Of a DNA stretch of 64,000 nucleotides, positions 4,314 through 36,098 are shown in pieces. The notes under the pieces were generated by a model. It did no database searches, was not told where the DNA came from, and saw nothing but the letters and a program-made list of their open reading frames with translations. This DNA is from Actinomycetota bacterium. Lineage in GTDB: Bacteria > Actinomycetota > Acidimicrobiia > Acidimicrobiales > Iamiaceae. Each line of letters starts with the position of its first letter. Positions within the stretch are counted from its first letter, which is position 1. The position numbers and the translations under genes are program-made. The stretch covers positions 1-64,000 of the forward strand of contig JAHBSO010000005.1 in assembly GCA_019639075.1 (NCBI GenBank). Reading direction: 5' to 3'.

Positions 4314-4847
4314 TCAGATCAGCGCCACGTCGTTGATCGCCGCCAGCGCGACGTAGCAGTCGCTGCCCGTCCCTCCCCGGACCGTCGCCAGGTCCCGACC
4401 CGCGGCTCGCAGTCGGCCGGGGACCCGGTCGCCGCCCACCGTGTAGATCGCCACCGTCGGTCGATCGATCGCCAGCTCGACCAGCAGCGCGTGCAGGGTC
4501 GCGGTCCGGCGATCGCGCCGGTCCCCGTCGGTGGAGCGCGCCCCCGGTTCCGGGCGGATCCCGGTGACGGCCGCCAGCGGGACGTAGGTCAGGTCGCCCC
4601 CGGGACCGACGAGGCCGAGGTGGTCGGCCCCGAGCGACCGGACCGTCCCCCGCAGGAGGCGACCGGCCCGGGTGTGCAGCGCGACCGGTGCCCGCCGCTC
4701 GGCCAGGTCGACGAGGACGCCGGCGAAGGTGCCCTCCTCGCCGGCCTGGGCGAGCAGCGACCGCTGCCGCCGTCGGGCCGACGCGGCCTCCTCGGCCCGG
4801 GTCCGGTCGGTGAGCTCGCGGAGCTCGCGGTCGTTCGGTGGCGCCAT
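4314..4847 (-). CDS. Conserved hypothetical protein with an Sm-like beta-barrel region
   Basis: About 177 residues from the ATG at 4847; a GTG at 4880 is a longer alternative. Residues 1-40 are highly charged and probably helical. After them comes a pattern of short strands ([19 protein letters not shown], then [12 protein letters not shown]) that resembles an LSm/Hfq-like fold as found in several actinobacterial proteins of unknown function. A second strand-rich part repeats a similar pattern ([16 protein letters not shown]). I do not recognise the family. It is convergent with the HTH gene (7 bases apart) and divergent from phoH. Confidence 0.6.
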
Positions 4848-4944
4848 GGCCGCAGCATGGCCGGCGTGCCCCGCGGTCAAACCGTCTCACCGCCGGAGCC
4901 GGGTGGAGCGGTACGATTGCGGCGCTCCCACCGAAAGCCCGTCC

Positions 4945-5906
<962 letters not shown>

Positions 5907-8679: not shown

Positions 8680-9309
8680 GTGGCCACCACGATGCAGCCC
8701 TCGCTGTTCGACGCCCGATCCGACGTGCCGGTCCTGGGTCCCCTCGCCGACCGGGTCCGGCGGCACGAGCTGACCGACGGCGCGTGGGTCGACGTCCGAC
8801 CCGGCTGGATGTCCGGTTCCGTCGGTCTCTTCGAGCGGCTCCGCGACGACGTGCCGTGGCGCGCCGAGCGTCGGCCCATGTACGACCGCGTCGTCGACGT
8901 GCCCCGGCTGGTCTCGACCTACCACGAGCGCGACGCCTGGCCCGATCCGCTGCTCGGCGCGGCACGCGACGCGCTCGACGAGCAGTACCGGGCCGAGCTC
9001 CCCGAGGGGTTCGCCACGGCGGGGCTCGCGCTCTACCGGGACGGGTCCGACTCGGTGGCCTGGCACGGCGACCGCATCGGCAAGGGCCGGTCGCGCGACA
9101 CGCTCGTGGCCATCGTGTCGCTCGGCGACGTCCGCACGCTGTGCCTGCGGCCCCGGGGTGGCGGGCGGTCCCTGCGGTTCGCGCTGGCGTCCGGCGACCT
9201 CCTCGTCATGGGCGGCTCGTGCCAGCGCACCTGGGAGCACGCCGTACCCAAGGTGCGATCGGCCGGCCCGCGGATGAGCGTGCAGTTCCGCCCCGCGGGC
9301 GTGTGGTGA
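8680..9309 (+). CDS. alkB: AlkB-like 2-oxoglutarate/Fe(II)-dependent dioxygenase
   Basis: About 209 residues, AlkB family of oxidative DNA or RNA demethylases. The iron ligands are visible as the HGD of WHGDR (about residue 129) and the histidine of WEHAVPK, and the 2-oxoglutarate arginine in RMSVQFR near the C-terminus. The substrate loop region RRPMYDRVVDVPRL matches bacterial AlkB relatives. The GTG at 8680 has AGGG eight bases upstream; GTG 8671 and ATG 8692 are alternatives. It stands about 50 bases after era. Confidence 0.88.
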   Translation: MATTMQPSLFDARSDVPVLGPLADRVRRHELTDGAWVDVRPGWMSGSVGLFERLRDDVPWRAERRPMYDRVVDVPRLVSTYHERDAWPDPLLGAARDALDEQYRAELPEGFATAGLALYRDGSDSVAWHGDRIGKGRSRDTLVAIVSLGDVRTLCLRPRGGGRSLRFALASGDLLVMGGSCQRTWEHAVPKVRSAGPRMSVQFRPAGVW

Positions 9310-9318
9310 GCGGCCCCG

Positions 9319-11208
9319 TCAGGCCGTGATCTCGGCGAGGAACGCCTCGACCTCGGCCCGGTCCTTGGTGCGCCGGAACGGCGGCAGCGCGTCGAGGAGC
9401 ACCCACCGGTAGCTGCGGGCCTTGGCCAGGCGGGGATCGAGGACGGCCACGACACCGCGGTCCGACGCGCTGCGGATCAGTCGCCCCACGCCCTGGGCCA
9501 GCATCATCGAGGTGCGGGGCAGGTCGATCAGGCGGAACGCGTCGGCCTTGGCCCGCTCGCGCCTGGCCTGCAGCAGCGGCTCGTCGGGGCGGGGGAAGGG
9601 CAGTCGGTCGATGGTCACGAGCGACAGGGTGCGCCCGGGCACGTCGATGCCCTGCCAGAAGCCCATGGTGGCGAACAACGACGTGGCCTCGTCGGCCGAG
9701 AACTGCTCGACCAGCGCGGGCTTGGGGAGGTCGCGCTGGCCGAGGACCGGCGTGTCGATCCGGGCCCGCACGGCCTCCAGCGCGGCGTCCATCGCCCGGT
9801 ACGACGTGAACAGCGACAGCGTCCGGCCCCCGGCGGCAGAGATCAGCGCGACCAGCTCGTCGTGCACCGCGGGGTCGAAGGTCGGCTGGCGGGGATCGGG
9901 CAGGTGGGTGGCGCAGTAGAGGAGCCCGTGGTGCTCGTAGTCGAACGGGCTGCCGACATCGATGCGGTCGTGGTCCTCCGCGGCGATCCCGAGCTGGTCG
10001 GCCAGGCCGTCGGGCAGGGTGGCGCTGGTGAGGACGGTCGGGCGCCGGTCCCACAGGCCCTGGCGAAGGACGTCGGTGACGTCGATCGGCGCGACCCGGA
10101 GACGGGGGTTGCCGGACGGTCCCTCGACCCACGCGACCATCGACTCGGGGACCGAGATCGCCGCGGCGACGTCGACCTGGAGGTGGCCGTTCAGCTGGAC
10201 GGCCCGGCTCTTGCGGGCGCCCACGTCGTCGCCGGCGTCGTCGGGGATCACCCGCAGCCCGTCGGCCACGCGATCCAGTCGCGCCCGGATGAGGGTGAGC
10301 GCGTCGACGAGGTCGGCCGGCGGGGCGCCCCGCAGCCGGCGGTCGACGTGCTCGGCGAGGGTGGCCGACAGCAGCGAGCCCGACGTCTCCAGGTCGTCGA
10401 CGACGGCGGGGTCCTCGAGGATGGACCGCACCGAGCGGGCCAGGTTCTGGAACCGGCCGGCCGACAGCTCGAAGCCACAGGTGTCCGAGACGATGTCCTC
10501 CAGCTGGTGCGCCTCGTCGACGATCACCAGGTCGTGCTCGGGGAGGATCGCGCCGTCGGTGGCCACGTCGAGGCCGAGCAGGTGCAGGTTCACCACGACG
10601 ACCTCGGCGTCGCCGGCCTTCCGGCGGGCGGCCTCGGCGAAGCACGTGTCGCCCATGGGGCAGCGGCGGGCGCCCGGGCACTCCTGGGCCGACACGCTGA
10701 TCGCGGCCCACGTGGCCGGGGACGGCTCGGCGGGCAGCTCGGCCCGGTCGCCGGTCTCCGACGTCGCCGCCCACAGCTTCAGGGTGGCCAGCTCGGCCGG
10801 CGATGCCCGTTCGGCCAACCCGTCGAGGGCGAGCTGGCCGGCGCCGGACAGCTCGTCGATCCGTTGGCGGCAGACGTAGTTCGACCGCCCCTTCAGCACG
10901 GCGAAGTCGAACGGCTCGCCCAGGTGTTCCTGGAGGAACGGGAGGTCCTTGGTGGCGAGCTGGTCCTGGAGCGCCTTGGTGGCGGTGGCGACGACGGTCC
11001 GCCGACCCGACAGCAGCGCCGGCACCAGGTAGGCGATGGTCTTGCCGGTGCCGGTTCCGGCCTGCACGACGAGGTGGCGCTTGCGGTCGATCGCGTCGGC
11101 GACCGCCTCGGCCATCTGCTGCTGGCCGGGCCGGTCCTCGGCGCCGCGGAGCTCGGCGGTGACCCGTTGCAGGGCGCCCGCGGCCCGCCGGGCTGCGGTG
11201 GTGGTCAC
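9319..11208 (-). CDS. DinG/YoaA-like Fe-S superfamily 2 DNA helicase
   Basis: About 629 residues, XPD-like helicase. Motif I is QAGTGTGKT, motif II is DEAH, and motif VI is in the QGVGRLIR segment. Four cysteines in the Fe-S region (one in CRQR, then CPGARRCPMGDTC) match the 4Fe-4S pattern of the family. Such enzymes unwind DNA during repair or R-loop removal. The GTG start at 11208 overlaps the BrkB-family stop by four bases, so the two are coupled. A much longer in-frame extension upstream has no helicase features and reads antisense through the neighbouring genes. Confidence 0.88.
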   Translation of the reverse strand: MTTTAARRAAGALQRVTAELRGAEDRPGQQQMAEAVADAIDRKRHLVVQAGTGTGKTIAYLVPALLSGRRTVVATATKALQDQLATKDLPFLQEHLGEPFDFAVLKGRSNYVCRQRIDELSGAGQLALDGLAERASPAELATLKLWAATSETGDRAELPAEPSPATWAAISVSAQECPGARRCPMGDTCFAEAARRKAGDAEVVVVNLHLLGLDVATDGAILPEHDLVIVDEAHQLEDIVSDTCGFELSAGRFQNLARSVRSILEDPAVVDDLETSGSLLSATLAEHVDRRLRGAPPADLVDALTLIRARLDRVADGLRVIPDDAGDDVGARKSRAVQLNGHLQVDVAAAISVPESMVAWVEGPSGNPRLRVAPIDVTDVLRQGLWDRRPTVLTSATLPDGLADQLGIAAEDHDRIDVGSPFDYEHHGLLYCATHLPDPRQPTFDPAVHDELVALISAAGGRTLSLFTSYRAMDAALEAVRARIDTPVLGQRDLPKPALVEQFSADEATSLFATMGFWQGIDVPGRTLSLVTIDRLPFPRPDEPLLQARRERAKADAFRLIDLPRTSMMLAQGVGRLIRSASDRGVVAVLDPRLAKARSYRWVLLDALPPFRRTKDRAEVEAFLAEITA

Positions 11209-22566: not shown

Positions 22567-24198
22567 TCAGGAGCTGCAGGAGAGCATCGAGCAGCCGACC
22601 CGGTCCCGGGCCCAGTCCGGGCGGCGGGCCGCGAACCGGGCGTTCCCGGGCTGGTCGTCGTAGGGGTCGCGGAGCACGTCGAGCAGTTCGGTGATCCGCG
22701 ACGGGTCGCCGGCCTCGGCCAGGTCGATGGCCTCCTGGGCGAGGTAGTTGCGCAGCACGTAGCGGGGGTTCCGGGCGTCCATGCCGGCGACGCGGGCATC
22801 GGGATCGCGGTCGGTCGCCGCCACCCGGGCCCGCCAGGTCCGCACCCACCCGGCGAGGTCGGCAGCGACGTCACCGGTGACCTCCTCGGGCCGGTACCAG
22901 GCGTCGGCCAGCGGGGCGAGCAGGTCGGCGTCGGACACGTCGACGTCGGGATCGACCGGCACGTCGGCCAGGTCCCGGAAGAAGAGCACCTGGTCGATCT
23001 CGGTCACGCCCAGCACCTCGGTGAGCGCCTGGATCGGCTCGTCGTCGCCGTCGCGCCACGGGCCCCATCCGAGACGCTCGGCCATCATCGTCCGGTAGCC
23101 GGACTCGTACGCCGCCGGGTAGCGGTCGACCGCCTCCTGCAGCGGCGCGACGTCGCCGTCGACCAACGGCACGAGCGCGTTGGCGAGCTGGACCAGGTTC
23201 CAGTGGGCGACCTGGGGCTGCTGGCCGTAGCGGTACCGGCGTCCGGACGCGTCGGTCGTGTTGGGCGTCCACATCGGGTCCCAGTCCTCGAGCCAGCCGT
23301 AGGGGCCGTAGTCGATGGTGAGGCCGAGGATCGACAGGTTGTCGGTGTTGAGCACGCCGTGGACGAACCCGACCCGCATCCAGTCGACCACCATCGTGGC
23401 CGTGCGTTCGGCCACCTCGCCGAGCCATCGGCCGACCAGCTCGGGCAGACCGACCGACGGGTCGGCCAGGTCGGGGAAGGAATGGTCGATCGTGACCCGG
23501 ACGAGCCGTTCCAGCAGCTCGTGGTCGCCCCGCGAGGCGGGCAGCTGGAAGGTGCCGAAGCGGGTGAAGCTCGGCGCCACCCGGCAGACCACCGCACCGG
23601 GCTCGGGCGCCGGGTTGCCGCTGTAGAGGATGTCGCGGACGACCTCGTCGCCCGTGGTGACGAGGCTCAGGGCGCGCGTGGTCGGGATGCCGAGGTGGTG
23701 CATCGCCTCGCTGCACAGGAACTCGCGCACCGAGCTCCGCAGCACCGCCCGGCCGTCGGCCGTGCGCGAGTACGGCGTCGGCCCCGCACCCTTGAGCTGG
23801 AGCATCTGGTGGTGGCCGTCGACGTCGAGCACCTCGCCGAGGGCGATGGCCCTCCCGTCGCCGAGCTGACCGGCCCACGACCCGAACTGGTGGCCGCCGT
23901 AGGCCATGGCGAACGGGTCGGCCCCGGCCGGCACCCGGTTGCCGCCGAACACCTGGGCGAAGTCGTCGCTCAGGGGCAGGTCGGGGGCCATGCCGAGCAG
24001 GGCGACGACCTCCGGCGACCAGGCGATCGTGCTGGGCGCCGCCACCGGCGTGGGCCGCACCCGGGTGTAGGCCGCCCCCTCGACCTGGCGGCGCACGTTG
24101 CGCTCGTCGGGGTCGGCGGGGAGGTCCCGGGTGAACCGGTTGTCGAACGGGAGCTCGTCGAGGTCGTCGATCGAGCGTGCGTTCACGGCGACGGACAT
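22567..24198 (-). CDS. selO: SelO-family protein AMPylase (UPF0061/YdiU)
   Basis: 543 residues, SelO pseudokinase that transfers AMP to Ser, Thr or Tyr of proteins and protects against oxidative stress. Hallmarks include AYGGHQFGSWAGQLGDGRA, the LQLKGAGPTPYSRTADGRAV (20 residues) segment and VLNTDNLSILG. The C-terminus is GCSMLSCSS: cysteine stands where animal SelO has selenocysteine. The ATG at 24198 starts inside the preceding kinase gene (16-base overlap), so the two are coupled. Confidence 0.92.
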   Translation of the reverse strand: MSVAVNARSIDDLDELPFDNRFTRDLPADPDERNVRRQVEGAAYTRVRPTPVAAPSTIAWSPEVVALLGMAPDLPLSDDFAQVFGGNRVPAGADPFAMAYGGHQFGSWAGQLGDGRAIALGEVLDVDGHHQMLQLKGAGPTPYSRTADGRAVLRSSVREFLCSEAMHHLGIPTTRALSLVTTGDEVVRDILYSGNPAPEPGAVVCRVAPSFTRFGTFQLPASRGDHELLERLVRVTIDHSFPDLADPSVGLPELVGRWLGEVAERTATMVVDWMRVGFVHGVLNTDNLSILGLTIDYGPYGWLEDWDPMWTPNTTDASGRRYRYGQQPQVAHWNLVQLANALVPLVDGDVAPLQEAVDRYPAAYESGYRTMMAERLGWGPWRDGDDEPIQALTEVLGVTEIDQVLFFRDLADVPVDPDVDVSDADLLAPLADAWYRPEEVTGDVAADLAGWVRTWRARVAATDRDPDARVAGMDARNPRYVLRNYLAQEAIDLAEAGDPSRITELLDVLRDPYDDQPGNARFAARRPDWARDRVGCSMLSCSS

Positions 24199-24833
24199 GG
24201 CTCCGACGCTATCGGCGGGCCGTCGCCGGCCAACTCGGCGAGGCGGCGCAGCGCCGTCGCCTTGGTGGTGGGTCGGGCGCCGAGCGCCCGTTGACGGGCC
24301 ACGACGGCCGGTTCGGCCATGGTCTTCGTCCACCCCTGGCGCACGAGGTACCAGGGCGACTTCCGGGCCTCGCGGATGTCGCGCAGCAGCCGGCGGACGA
24401 AGGTCACCGTCCGGGGCTGGCGGACCAGGAGCGCGTCCGCGAGCAGGTCCCGTTCGCGCAGAGCGGCCACGATCTCGGCCGCGAAGATCCCCTCGGCGAC
24501 CACCACCGGCGATCCGTTGCGCTCGATCGTCCGGTGGCCGACCACCGCATTGGCCCCGAACGAGTAGGTCGGCACGTCGACGGTCTCGGAGCGACAGAGC
24601 TCGTCGAGGGCTTGGACGGCGGCGTCGGCGTCCCAGGTGTCCGGGTCCTCCCAGTCGACGGCACCGTCGTCGGTGCGGGGGAGATCCGGAGCGGCACCGC
24701 CGCGGTAGAAGTCGTCGAGGGCCACGACCGGGAGCCCCGACTGCAGCGCCACGTGGGTCTTGCCGCACCCCGACGGCCCGGCGAGCAGCACCACCTTCGC
24801 CAGGATCGGTCGGGGTTCCGGCGGCGTCGCCAC
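24183..24833 (-). CDS. Uridine-kinase-like P-loop kinase
   Basis: About 216 residues with Walker A GPSGCGKT at about 20-27, then VVALDDFYR as in uridine/phosphoribulokinase-like enzymes, and a lid region with several arginines (FVRRLLRDIREARKSPWYLV). The substrate is not shown; uridine or another small hydroxylated molecule is the family norm. The GTG at 24833 follows the stop of the upstream gene by five bases. The end overlaps selO. Confidence 0.75.
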   Translation of the reverse strand: MATPPEPRPILAKVVLLAGPSGCGKTHVALQSGLPVVALDDFYRGGAAPDLPRTDDGAVDWEDPDTWDADAAVQALDELCRSETVDVPTYSFGANAVVGHRTIERNGSPVVVAEGIFAAEIVAALRERDLLADALLVRQPRTVTFVRRLLRDIREARKSPWYLVRQGWTKTMAEPAVVARQRALGARPTTKATALRRLAELAGDGPPIASEPCPSP

Positions 24834-28038: not shown

Positions 28039-28050
28039 TCGGGCGGCGAA

Positions 28051-28120
28051 GTGTCGGCGCCGACACGTTCGGCGTGTCGGCCCGTGGACGGACGCTCGCC
28101 GTAGATGGGCGGACGATGAC
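28051..28120 (+). promoter_or_regulatory. Regulatory segment A upstream of the repeat-peptide gene
   Basis: Starts with the perfect 16-base palindrome GTGTCGGCGCCGACAC (28051-28066), continues as a second inverted repeat CCGACACG-TTCGG-CGTGTCGG (28060-28080), and ends in GGCGGACGATGAC (28108-28120). Segment B at 28812-28881 has the same order and the same 57-base distance between first and last element, with about 51 of 70 bases identical. Probably an operator and promoter shared by the peptide and protease genes. Confidence 0.7.
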
Positions 28121-28170
28121 GGCGTGATCCAGTCGGGTCACACCGACCAACAGCCCGTCAGGAGCCCACC

Positions 28171-28404
28171 ATGCACATCGTCCCCGTCCTCCCCACCGAG
28201 ACCGACCCGGCCGCCGCCGAGACGGTCCCGTCCCACCGCACCGCCAGCCGCCGCACGTTCGGTCGCTGGTCCCCCAGCCGCCGCACGTTCGGTCGCTGGT
28301 CCCCGAGTCGGCGGACCTTCGGCCGCTACGGCGCCCCGAGCCGGCGCACGTTCGGCCGGCGGCTCCCGCCGAGCCGGCGCACGTTCGGCAGGTTCATCCC
28401 CTGA
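28171..28404 (+). CDS. Repeat peptide with five SRRTFGR units (candidate processed precursor)
   Basis: 77 residues. Residues 1-25 form an acidic, Pro/Thr-rich leader; then SRRTFGR occurs five times (starting at residues 26, 36, 46, 57 and 68), with short variable linkers WSP, WSP, YGAP, RLPP and FIP. Within the repeats every nucleotide difference is silent (seven variable sites, for example CGC/CGG/AGG for the last Arg), so the peptide is under selection. AGGAG lies seven bases before the ATG. Leader plus repeated core resembles multi-core peptide precursors; an Arg-rich nucleic-acid-binding peptide is the alternative. I do not recognise a family. Its stop overlaps the ACT gene end by 11 bases. 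The M50 protease at 28885 shares its upstream segment. Confidence 0.75.
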   Translation: MHIVPVLPTETDPAAAETVPSHRTASRRTFGRWSPSRRTFGRWSPSRRTFGRYGAPSRRTFGRRLPPSRRTFGRFIP

Positions 28405-28795
28405 CCCGTCGGGCGAGCCCCTCGATCGCGGCGACAGCGTCGTCGGCGCGGTCGAGGGGCACGAGCAGGTGGTCGTGGTGGAAGCCGGCCAGCACGTTGC
28501 AGGCGATGCCGCGATCGGCGAGCGCCGTCGACACGGCGGCGGTGAGCCCGACCGCCGCCAACGAGCTGTGCACGGCGAGCGTCAGCCACGCCGCCCGGAA
28601 GCCGATCGGCCACCCCCGCCGGTCGGCCTCGTCGACGGTCACCACGGCCGTCGTGCCCTCCGCCTCGGTGACGAGCGCCAGGACGCCGTCGCCCAGTTCG
28701 ACCGGCTCCGGCAGGGTCACGACGGTGACGGGGTCGGCGAGCCGCTCGACCCGGAGCGTGGCCAGCATGCGGCCGAGGTCGGTCTCACCGGTCAT
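28394..28795 (-). CDS. ACT-domain protein
   Basis: 133 residues with two ACT-like halves. The pattern AWLTLAVHSSLAAVGLTAAV followed by LADRGIACNVLAGFHHDHLLV is typical of small stand-alone ACT proteins (COG3602-like) that bind amino acids. ATG 28795. It is tail-to-tail with the repeat-peptide gene, overlapping 11 bases, and divergent from the M50 gene across regulatory segment B. Whether it belongs to the peptide system is unknown; location suggests it might. Confidence 0.8.
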   Translation of the reverse strand: MTGETDLGRMLATLRVERLADPVTVVTLPEPVELGDGVLALVTEAEGTTAVVTVDEADRRGWPIGFRAAWLTLAVHSSLAAVGLTAAVSTALADRGIACNVLAGFHHDHLLVPLDRADDAVAAIEGLARRVRG

Positions 28796-28811
28796 GGCCC
28801 GACCCTACGCA

Positions 28812-28881
28812 GTGTGCGCGCCGACACGTTCGGACCGTCGCCCGACGGACGGACGGCAGAGACCGGTCGGCGGACGATGAC
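28812..28881 (+). promoter_or_regulatory. Regulatory segment B between the ACT gene and the M50 protease gene
   Basis: Matches segment A: GTGTGCGCGCCGACAC (28812-28827, two mismatches to the palindrome), the shared CACGTTCGG (28825-28833), then GGCGGACGATGAC (28869-28881) ending three bases before the protease ATG. The second inverted repeat of segment A is decayed here. It could act on both divergent genes. Confidence 0.65.
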
Positions 28882-28884
28882 CAC

Positions 28885-30225
28885 ATGACCCGGAACCGCC
28901 CCAACACCGCCGCCGAGACCGTCACCGCCGAGCACTTCGCCCCCTGGGTCGAGTGGCGCCTCGAGCGCTGCCGGCGGGGCCGCAGCCTCGTCGTCGCCGT
29001 CAACACGATCACCGACGAGGTGGTCCAGGTCGATCCGGCCGAGGTCGTCGCCGGGACCCCGGAGCTGCACGACGGCGCATTCCTCGCCGGCGATGCCCGG
29101 CCGGCGGTGCCGTCCTCGATCCGGCGGCCGGGCGACGGCGTCGTCTGGTGGGGGGCCGACCGGTTCGCCCGACGGATCCACGACGGGCGCCTCGCCCCGC
29201 TGTTCGGCCGGTCCGGGTTCGTCGGGCAGGTCGTGCTGGCGGTCGTCGGACTGGTCGGCCTGCTCGGGCTGATCGGACGCGAGCCGGTCCAGTGGCGGGC
29301 GACGCCGTGGGAGGTGCCGGTCATCGTCGTCCTGGGCCTCGTCGCGATGGTCGTGCACGAGTCCGGTCACGCGCTGCTGACGGTCCGCCACGGTCGTCGG
29401 GTCCGGGCCGCCGGGATGGTCCTGCACCTCGGGTCGCCGACGTTCTACGTCGACTCCACCGACGCCGTGCTCCTCGACCGGCGCCAGCGCATGCTCCAGG
29501 CGGCCGCCGGCCCCTGGGCCGAATGGCTCGTCACCTCGATCGTGGTCCTGGTCGCGCTGGTCCTGCCCGCCGGTGGCGCGCCGGCCCAGGTGCTCCAACG
29601 GTTCGCCGTGGTCAACACCATCGGCATCCTCACCAACCTGCTGCCGTTCGTGCGGCTCGACGGGTCCCTCCTCCTCGGCGATCTCGTCCGGGAGCCGGAT
29701 CTCGCGCAGCGGACCCGGGCGGTCCTGCGGCGGGGTGGTGCCGACCTGCGTCGGGATCCTGCGCTCGTGGCGTACGCCGTGGCCGACTCGGCGGTGGCTG
29801 CGGTGCTCCTGGCCTCGTCGTTCTGGTTCTGGTGGCTGCTCTTCGGGGACCTGGTCCTGCTGCTCTGGCACGCCGGACCGGTCGGGATCGCCGGGTTGGC
29901 CGTCGCCGCCGCCCTGGCCACCGGGCGGCTCCACCGGGTGCCGGCGTTCGCCCCGACGGTCCGCCGGTGCCGCTTCCGGATGGAGCGGGGGTGGCGGGTC
30001 CGGGCCACGTTGGCCTTCCGCTCGCTCCCGGAGCTCGCGGGCTGCGACGAGGCGGCCCTCGGCGTGGTCGCCGGCCGCCTCCGCCGGGTCCGCCCCGGCG
30101 AGCGGCTCCCGGAGGCGGGCCACGTGTTCCACCGCCGTTCCGGCCTCGGGGCCGTGCCGGCGGGGGAGCGGTCGGACCGACGCCTCGTCTTCCTGCCGGC
30201 ATCGGTCGTCGCGCAGGCGGCCTGA
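28885..30225 (+). CDS. Membrane M50-family metalloprotease
   Basis: 446 residues. The zinc motif HESGH is at 158-162 in a membrane helix, and the second M50 motif NLLPFVRLDG is at 251-260, so the active site looks complete. Hydrophobic segments surround it (about 112-132, 142-160, 215-232, 275-330). The soluble N-terminal about 100 residues and the NLLPFVRLDGSLLLGDLV style resemble the peptide-type M50 proteases found with modified peptides (YydH-like). ATG at 28885, directly behind regulatory segment B. It is the natural partner for the SRRTFGR peptide; that link is inference. Confidence 0.82.
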   Translation: MTRNRPNTAAETVTAEHFAPWVEWRLERCRRGRSLVVAVNTITDEVVQVDPAEVVAGTPELHDGAFLAGDARPAVPSSIRRPGDGVVWWGADRFARRIHDGRLAPLFGRSGFVGQVVLAVVGLVGLLGLIGREPVQWRATPWEVPVIVVLGLVAMVVHESGHALLTVRHGRRVRAAGMVLHLGSPTFYVDSTDAVLLDRRQRMLQAAAGPWAEWLVTSIVVLVALVLPAGGAPAQVLQRFAVVNTIGILTNLLPFVRLDGSLLLGDLVREPDLAQRTRAVLRRGGADLRRDPALVAYAVADSAVAAVLLASSFWFWWLLFGDLVLLLWHAGPVGIAGLAVAAALATGRLHRVPAFAPTVRRCRFRMERGWRVRATLAFRSLPELAGCDEAALGVVAGRLRRVRPGERLPEAGHVFHRRSGLGAVPAGERSDRRLVFLPASVVAQAA

Positions 30226-34808: not shown

Positions 34809-35858
34809 CTATGTCAAGGTCCCGGCGAGATCCTGGATGAGCAGGTGGTGGAACCGTCGGGCGAGGGAGCGCTTGAGGCATCGCCAGATCTCGCGGTCGG
34901 TCTTGTTCTCGGCTCGGCGTCGGTCGATGTAGGCGCGTGTCTCGGGGCATCGTCGGCTGCGGTGGAGCACGACGGTGTGCAAGGCGTTGTTGGCGTGGCG
35001 GTTGCCCCCTCTGTTGAGTCGGTGCCGCTGGTGTTTGCCGGAAGACGCGTCGACGGGGCTGGTGCCGCAGAGCGCTGCGAACGATGCCTCGCTGCGCATC
35101 CGTTCGGGGTTCTGGCCGGCGGCGACGATGAGCTTCGCGGCGACGTCGAGGCCGACGCCGGTCTCGGCGAGCAGGCTCGGAGCGAGCTCGCGCAGCAGCG
35201 GCCAGAGTTGGGCTTCGGTCGTCTTGATCTCCTCGTGCAGGGCGATCCAGCGGCGAGCCAGGGTGCGTATGGCGTGGCGGGTCGCGGCTGCGGGTCCGTC
35301 GATCGTCCCGGGCCGCCAGCTCGCGGCCTTCCGGACGCGCTGGATCGTGGTGAGCGAGCGGAGTTCGTTGCGGACCGCCTCCGGTGCGGTGATGACCAGG
35401 TCCTTGATCTGGTTGCCGGCCTGGGTCTTGGCCTTCACAGCCGATCGCCTGGTCAGGTGCAAGACCCGGACCGCTTCGACCAGCCCGGTGGAGTCCTTCG
35501 GGGTCGCGTCGGCCACGCCCGCCAACACCGCCCGTGCCGCGGCGATCGCGTCGGCGGTGTCGGACTTGCCGTGACGACGCCGCTGTTGACGGTTCGGCCG
35601 GTTGACCTCGAGAACACACACGCCTGCTTCGATGAGGTGGCGGGCCAGACCGGCCCCATAAGCGCCGGTGCCCTCGACCCCAGCGCGCTGCACATCGCCG
35701 TGACTGGCGGCCCAGGACAAGAGCCGGCGGTAGCCACCAGCGGTCGCCGGAACCTCGATCACGGCGACGAGCTCGCCGATCGCGTTGAGGACCGCGGCGG
35801 TGTGGGTGTCGGCATGAGTGTCGACCCCGAGGATGACTTCGGACGGCATTGCTGGCAT
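34809..35858 (-). CDS. IS110-family transposase (DEDD recombinase)
   Basis: About 349 residues. The N-terminal RuvC-like DEDD domain begins VILGVDTHADTHTAAVLNA, with VEGTGAYGAGLARHL and KSDTADAIAAARA. The C-terminal Tnp_20 domain has LAETGVGLDVAAKLIVAAG and the FAALCGTSPVDASSGKHQRH segment, with the catalytic serine in the SSG part. All motifs look intact. ATG at 35858 places the DEDD domain at the start; ATG 35900 is an alternative. The stop codon TAG lies within the repeated CATAGGAGC word. Confidence 0.92.
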   Translation of the reverse strand: MPAMPSEVILGVDTHADTHTAAVLNAIGELVAVIEVPATAGGYRRLLSWAASHGDVQRAGVEGTGAYGAGLARHLIEAGVCVLEVNRPNRQQRRRHGKSDTADAIAAARAVLAGVADATPKDSTGLVEAVRVLHLTRRSAVKAKTQAGNQIKDLVITAPEAVRNELRSLTTIQRVRKAASWRPGTIDGPAAATRHAIRTLARRWIALHEEIKTTEAQLWPLLRELAPSLLAETGVGLDVAAKLIVAAGQNPERMRSEASFAALCGTSPVDASSGKHQRHRLNRGGNRHANNALHTVVLHRSRRCPETRAYIDRRRAENKTDREIWRCLKRSLARRFHHLLIQDLAGTLT

Positions 35859-36098
35859 CGTGGAGCTGCTCCTGATTCGCGAGATTTCGGGAAGCACCAT
35901 CAGCCGGAACGACGGACAAGACAGTTGGTGTGCAAGACCAACGCTCCTATGAGGTCACGTTCGTCCGACCGGCTGGTGCGCGTCCGGGATCCAGACACCG
36001 AGCCGACAGATCAACGGATAGGCATCACGCCAGTCACACCCAGAGTCAGACCCGGGCTGGACCCCGGACCGGGACAGCCTCGCTCAACTGTCACACCC
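35859..36098 (-). ncRNA. Possible bridge-RNA leader of the IS110 element
   Basis: Non-coding stretch of about 240 bases upstream of the transposase. It includes a perfect hairpin GTTGGT-CTTGCAC-ACCAAC (minus strand, about 35923-35941) directly beside CATAGGAGC, the same nine bases that occur at the other end of the element. A guide loop matching the element's own end is expected of IS110 bridge RNAs. No covariation or expression evidence, so tentative. Confidence 0.35.

Follow-up and report, generated by a model that had tools for sequence, protein, structure and literature searches.

A repeat peptide gene paired with an M50 peptidase gene in the Acidimicrobiales and its probable role as a multi-copy precursor

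The repeat peptide gene and its homologues

The stretch of DNA analysed here (64,000 nucleotides, referred to as the window) comes from an Actinomycetota bacterium of the family Iamiaceae, order Acidimicrobiales, and carries a small open reading frame (ORF) at positions 28171 to 28404 of the forward strand. It encodes a 77-aa peptide, MHIVPVLPTETDPAAAETVPSHRTA-SRRTFGRWSP-SRRTFGRWSP-SRRTFGRYGAP-SRRTFGRRLPP-SRRTFGRFIP. The 25-aa leader (28171 to 28245, +), with IVPVLP at 28177 to 28194, is followed by a repeat region (28246 to 28401, +) of five exact SRRTFGR units (28246 to 28266, 28276 to 28296, 28306 to 28326, 28339 to 28359, and 28372 to 28392, all +). The spacers after the units are variable, 3 to 4 residues long, and each ends in Pro. 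A Shine-Dalgarno sequence, AGGAG (28160 to 28164, +), stands 6 nt 5' of the ATG. The first-pass annotation described an acidic leader and basic repeats; the repeat part is indeed strongly basic (+16 in 52 aa), but the leader is only mildly acidic (net charge of −2). No family in Pfam or NCBIfam matched this peptide or its relatives above cut-off, and a DUF4817 match (E 0.0075, below its cut-off) was taken as an artefact of composition. The only other SRRTFGR-like match in the window genome lies antisense to a membrane-protein ORF and was attributed to chance.

The self-repeat score of the peptide is 16 standard deviations above shuffles of the same composition, and Tandem Repeats Finder (TRF) reports a DNA array with a 30- to 33-bp period at 28244 to 28389. 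Among the five 21-nt units there are seven variable columns, and all seven derived states are silent, a pattern expected by chance with P ~1.6e-4 (about 18 of the 63 possible single changes are silent). The earlier observation of five strict units with silent DNA differences is therefore confirmed by both the reading of the ORF and the silent-change test. GC-rich DNA often carries tandem arrays, and the reverse strand is repetitive too, so the array might be open by accident and its peptide unselected. We regard this explanation as almost certainly wrong: the differences are silent only, all four SRRT peptide genes have a Shine-Dalgarno sequence in the same layout, the leader is conserved, and homologues encode the same residues with different codons.

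Three homologous peptides came to light when small ORFs near distant M50 relatives were scanned for self-repetition. With the window peptide included, the set covers three families and four genera within the order. The peptide at locus L127 (genome G239, another family of the order; 1156 to 1311; MKIKPVQPTTTQKSASEPSRRTLGFKYHPSRRTLVAKFHPSRRTMFGRIHP) is encoded directly upstream of an M50 gene, as is that at L151 (G662, a third family; 4633 to 4809; MELDDLDDLDGEIVPVDPARAQAPIGSATTVTTLSRRTFGRYTTSSRRTFSAAGRYRG), where the M50 gene starts at 4871. The third, at L150 (G728, another genus of the G239 family; 5235 to 5393; MNIVPIHPDDVGGTVAADLVVPEPRRRRASRRTLARYRPSRRTLARRGPSRRT), is cut by the contig end. 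All four peptides have the short leader motif [IV]xPxxP (IVPVLP in the window), which within this set takes the narrower form I[VK]P[VI]xP, and two to five SRRT[FLM] units. Their C termini differ (FIP, IHP, and YRG). Serine is encoded by AGC/AGT in two of the genomes and by TCG/TCA in the other two, so the SRRT residues are conserved at the protein level. Random changes of the repeats in related genomes had been named as an outcome that would speak against the peptide; what the homologues contain is SRRT units that stay in frame although the codons differ. The initial description of the peptide as unrecognized is corrected by these three homologues with their shared leader motif and unit. Judged by its sequence, the peptide is a member of a family that had not been named before.

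No relative was found among the other 11 genomes of the genus, where one possible match (G010, E 0.002) contains internal stops and was rejected. Searched collection-wide, a pattern of two RRTFGR units occurred at 56 loci, but no homologous peptide with leader and repeats is encoded at any of them. Viral contigs held no relatives, and plasmids held no peptide.

The M50 peptidase and its pairing with the peptide

A gene for an M50 intramembrane metallopeptidase (28885 to 30225, +) starts 480 bp downstream of the peptide gene. Its catalytic motifs are present, with the HExxH motif as HESGH at residues 158 to 162 and the Asp that is the second metal ligand in NxxPxxxLDG (NLLPFVRLDG). H158, E159, H162, N251, P254, D259, and G260 are invariant in 17 aligned M50s, and all 17 M50s compared match the daptide_HExxH and LiaK/YydH models. 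The window protein matches daptide_HExxH (NF041824) with an E value of 1.9e-27 and 96.4 bits, far under the curated cut-off of 300, while matches to this model within the family reach E values down to 1.3e-49. Its match to NF058609 (EpeP/YydH/LiaK) is weak (E 7.2e-6). Plasmids encode only distant M50s covering 28%, and three of the five top matches are annotated mpaP.

The N-terminal domain of canonical family members is predicted to fold as bbb-aaa (pLDDT of 83). Its seven best PDB matches (TbiB1, lasso B1, PqqD) are RiPP recognition elements (RREs), the domains that bind RiPP leaders, or PqqD, with probabilities of 0.98 to 1.00 and TM-scores of 0.60 to 0.73, and the matches that follow include, among others, a sactipeptide maturase. 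Sequence searches with this domain gave a weak pointer the same way (the PaaA N-terminal domain). An RRE-like fold is thus predicted for the canonical members, and the structural match applies to that form; the window protein has a shortened, RRE-like N terminus (predicted bbb-aa, residues 22 to 63; pLDDT of 72 for the full-length model) and only a remnant of the C-terminal cyclic-nucleotide domain. From homology we infer that the window M50 may share the RRE function of leader binding. A structure search with its whole chain returned ion channels only, which share transmembrane and cyclic-nucleotide domains, and was set aside.

The peptide and the M50 occur together. In 397 genomes of the order, which are a sample and not an exhaustive set, a peptide profile gave strong matches only in G000, G239, and G662 (E ≤ 2e-18; next match at about 1e-3), and an M50 profile matched in five genomes only (G000, G025, G064, G239, and G662). 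All three genomes with a peptide match are thus among the five with the M50, and the two genes are neighbors; the fourth, contig-cut peptide came from a search of 121 genomes of the family. At the three loci where the contig continues, the M50s beside SRRT peptides are monophyletic (support of 97/96), with 47 to 48% identity between the G239 and window proteins. The M50 of G025 stands beside a different peptide, of SRxT type (MAITPKKP...AESRETKRLYAGNRNESRQTKR...), and that of G064 beside at least three tandem peptide genes of the type MTRARKVRRVRRVNRRWxRxRSDQRIKR.... In the stretches compared at same-order loci, the M50 is the only gene in common. The other 11 genomes of the genus lack this M50. 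No empty site was readable, as the flanking ACT gene has different neighbors in the only relative that carries it. At L127, where the likeliest M50 start is ATG 1387, the peptide and M50 genes have a strong terminator between them, with a 17-bp hairpin (−37.7 kcal/mol, z −7.5), as expected if more precursor than enzyme is made.

Locus L049 carries at least three tandem paralogous repeat peptides (8988 to 9465, −) with VNRRWxRxRSDQRIKR units and a partial fourth upstream; they stand upstream of an S74-chaperone-like ORF and an M50.

The two window genes also have nearly the same upstream DNA. Positions 28046 to 28120 (peptide) and 28807 to 28881 (M50) align over 74 bp, with a score of 30 versus a shuffled maximum of 12.4, and both promoters contain GTGTCGGCGCCGACAC or a variant of it together with GCCGACACGTTCGG and GGCGGACGATGAC. 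Upstream of the peptide, the operator-like palindrome GTGTCGGCGCCGACAC (28051 to 28066) overlaps GCCGACACGTTCGGCGTGTCGGC (28059 to 28081), the two spanning 28051 to 28081 (+), and the promoter alignment places a second copy, GTGTGCGCGCCGACACGTTCGG, upstream of the M50 gene (28812 to 28833, +). Element GGCGGACGATGAC is found at 28108 to 28120 (+) and again at 28869 to 28881 (+), 3 nt 5' of the M50 start codon. The L151 peptide is preceded by CGTGTCGGCCGACACG with the same GCCGACACGTTCGG and by CGTGTCGGCCGACACGTTCGG, and the L150 peptide by GGGCGGACGATG, the counterpart of GGCGGACGATGAC; both promoters align with that of the window above shuffles, whereas the L127 promoter does not. The operator 14-mer also occurs exactly a third time, but within a coding gene, and this copy was disregarded. 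In G662, a gene for a Crp/Fnr-type regulator is divergent from and adjoins the peptide gene, and homologue clustering groups it with the Crp gene of the cassette seen across the phylum (described below). This regulator may bind the candidate palindrome GTGTCGGCCGACAC. Peptide and M50 could be co-regulated via the palindromic, perhaps Crp-type, putative operator.

Other genes surround the pair in the window. The main ORFs within about 8 kb encode SelO (a SelO-type protein adenylyltransferase at 22570 to 24768, −), a PRK-like kinase, an inositol monophosphatase, NUDIX, sigma-70, 2-thiouracil desulfurase, ACT, MerR, PEMT-like, sulfatase, and IS110 proteins. The ACT-domain gene (28394 to 28795, −) is convergent with the peptide gene, overlaps its last 11 nt, and separates it from the M50 gene; it does not lie between the pair in L127 or L151. 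The IS110-family transposase gene (34809 to 35900, −), about 5 kb downstream of the M50 gene, could bear on the patchy distribution.

Proposed processing and comparison with known systems

We favor, as probably correct, the reading that the peptide is a multi-copy precursor whose leader is recognized and cut by the dedicated membrane M50, with the release of short basic peptides. There is good support for a leader with repeated cores behind it: homologues exist, motif and unit are conserved, and the partner M50 comes from a family in which the canonical members have an RRE-like domain. In this scheme the leader motif IVPVLP would dock the precursor on the M50, which would cut off the leader within or at the membrane. 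The M50, alone or with general proteases, would then split the array into its repeats, with the Pro|Ser-Arg-Arg-Thr junctions as the simplest candidate sites. The products would be basic peptides of about 10 to 11 residues that all begin with SRRT and differ in their tails, e.g., SRRTFGRWSP, apparently unmodified and probably released outside the cell, where they might act as a signal or an antimicrobial.

The family has precedents in RRE-protease fusions and in M50s that act on ribosomal peptides. MpaP, an RRE fused to a site-2 protease, removes the leader of daptides (PMC10036551), and the M50s TglG, TmoG, and EpeP act on ribosomal peptides or precursors of RiPPs (PMC10885120). The daptide leader peptidase MpaP (NF041824), whose precursor is MpaA, is the nearest known protein and is related to the window M50. 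Daptides resemble the family in that the intramembrane M50 carries a fused RRE-like domain and its gene adjoins that of a short precursor with a conserved motif at the N terminus. However, the window precursor lacks the invariant C-terminal Thr and the ELExMEAP motif of daptides, its cores are basic and repeated, the locus lacks the oxidative decarboxylase, aminotransferase, and methyltransferase set (MpaB/C/D/M type), and the M50 scores below the NF041824 cut-off. For the epipeptides (YydF/EpeX with EpeP/YydH/LiaK), cleavage and export of a small peptide are attributed to the membrane M50. The precursor there differs from the basic tandem repeats of the window, and neither a radical SAM epimerase nor an ABC exporter was found beside the window peptide in the main ORFs within about 8 kb. 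Multi-core precursors such as those of some graspetides and of plant and fungal RiPPs likewise have one leader and several near-identical cores. Those are modified or cyclized by dedicated enzymes, whereas in the same-order loci the M50 is the only conserved enzyme.

The initial comparison with multi-core precursors thus holds for the leader and repeat design, which is kept in the homologues, but no sign of any modification accompanies it. RRE-fused or related M50s are known from modified daptides, epipeptides, and pearlins (PMC10036551, PMC10885120), and the strict conservation of SRRT would fit a modification site. The unit might accordingly be that of a classical RiPP, with Ser, Arg, Thr, or aromatic residues modified by an enzyme encoded elsewhere and the M50 acting as the last step. 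The window genome assembly is about 79% complete, and a distant modifying enzyme could lie outside it. We nevertheless consider this reading decidedly improbable, as no RiPP-type modifying enzyme was found among the main ORFs within about 8 kb or in the phylum-wide cassette, and none is shared among the same-order loci. Neither an exporter nor a modifying enzyme is conserved across the loci compared. The first-pass statement that no modifying enzyme except a protease is nearby stands for the main ORFs within about 8 kb, but it undersells the protease, which is a dedicated partner conserved beside the peptide and preceded in the window by a near-copy of the peptide promoter.

TglG and TmoG, the membrane M50s of pearlins, detach residues at the C terminus of a scaffold peptide (PMC10885120), and the window peptide might similarly carry a small molecule built on its end and clipped off by the M50. 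Pearlins yield a single C-terminal product as opposed to the internal repeats seen here, and a carrier does not need five of them. Moreover, the C termini of the SRRT peptides are not conserved, and the neighborhood yielded neither an aminoacyl-tRNA-dependent ligase nor an oxidase. This makes the carrier reading very improbable.

For the pairing of peptide and M50, no description was found in the open-licence literature, which is weak evidence of novelty. If the precursor reading holds, the pair offers a simple test of leader recognition by RRE-fused M50s and of the gating of release by cyclic nucleotides.

Related M50 loci across the phylum

This type of M50 is present in 31 genomes of a phylum-wide sample (396 genomes, again not exhaustive), mostly outside the order. 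Typical members have about 700 to 800 aa, with the N-terminal domain, the M50 domain, and two cyclic-nucleotide domains. In the cassette the M50 gene comes first, followed at about +20 bp by a zinc ribbon gene, then by the gene for a small basic peptide, and at about +600 bp by that for a Crp regulator. Loci L192 to L205 carry the four-gene cassette (e.g., L194, 6498 to 10500), and their CxxC zinc ribbon is a weak match to DUF2180. The [IV]xPxxP leader is common to the phylum-wide peptides and the SRRT peptides. Many of the former begin with MA(E/D/T)KK[IV][TSQ]PK.P followed by PATRV[ST]K(R/K)..., some have short repeats (RKVNRKVTRK; RDSKRDSKRDSKREAK), and two loci have tandem paralogues. Leader motif and basic tail recur in this larger family, but most of its peptides are not clean tandem repeats, and tandem multi-coring thus characterizes the SRRT clade (and G064).

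A profile of 11 of these peptides, searched against 9,324 ORFs of the loci, matched at E values below 1e-8 only ORFs adjacent to an M50, eleven of which were its own input sequences; the next match was at 0.16 or worse. A rule combining a Shine-Dalgarno sequence, M..[IV]xPxx, and a basic tail, which was written after the peptides had been seen and so describes rather than predicts, finds peptides in 16 of 24 M50 loci. It selects one ORF in the whole window (the 77-aa peptide), and control loci of about 530 kb yield a single one besides that of the window's own locus. About 6 of 21 strong M50 loci have no recognizable peptide in the DNA covered, some because of a cut flank.

The phylum-wide peptides are rich in Lys and Arg and resemble the tails of histones or ribosomal proteins. 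Together with the charge of the window repeats (+16 in 52 aa), this suggests the main alternative, that the peptide stays uncut inside the cell as a polyvalent basic protein (a binder of nucleic acid or other polyanions, or a scaffold that holds a partner by its SRRTFGR repeats) and that the M50 degrades it to set its level. The Crp regulator and the cyclic-nucleotide domains would suit such a regulatory circuit. Fusion of an RRE-type domain to a peptidase, however, is typical of precursor processing (PMC10036551), and the leader motif, set apart from the repeats, persists across changes in copy number, spacers, and even the unit, which fits a recognition sequence better than a single binding surface. 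We therefore regard the uncut protein as unlikely.

More tentatively, the precursor reading might extend to the phylum, as a possible and so far undescribed system in which an RRE-fused, cyclic-nucleotide-gated M50 and a Crp regulator yield unmodified secreted peptides, with the core tandemly amplified in the SRRT clade. If so, a wide range of the phylum's bacteria would make small basic peptides via a two- to four-gene cassette, and RiPP-style leader logic would serve unmodified peptides under second-messenger control. Genome miners would miss these peptides, since the cassette has no modifying enzymes.

Repetitive peptides of other kinds are encoded near more distant M50s. At L133 (2120 to 2461, +) and L053 (6342 to 6770, +), an alanine-rich repetitive peptide, DAAVAANANVAAPIDAAVSANV, stands beside M50s of a distant clade. 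At L059 (5640 to 6125, +), a leader-like peptide with a collagen-like GPGGPPGPGGPPGP tail is encoded upstream of a distant M50. At L129 (8363 to 8803, +), a possible Nif11-type leader is followed by GSLDAGSLDAGA repeats, with a related M50 on the contig.
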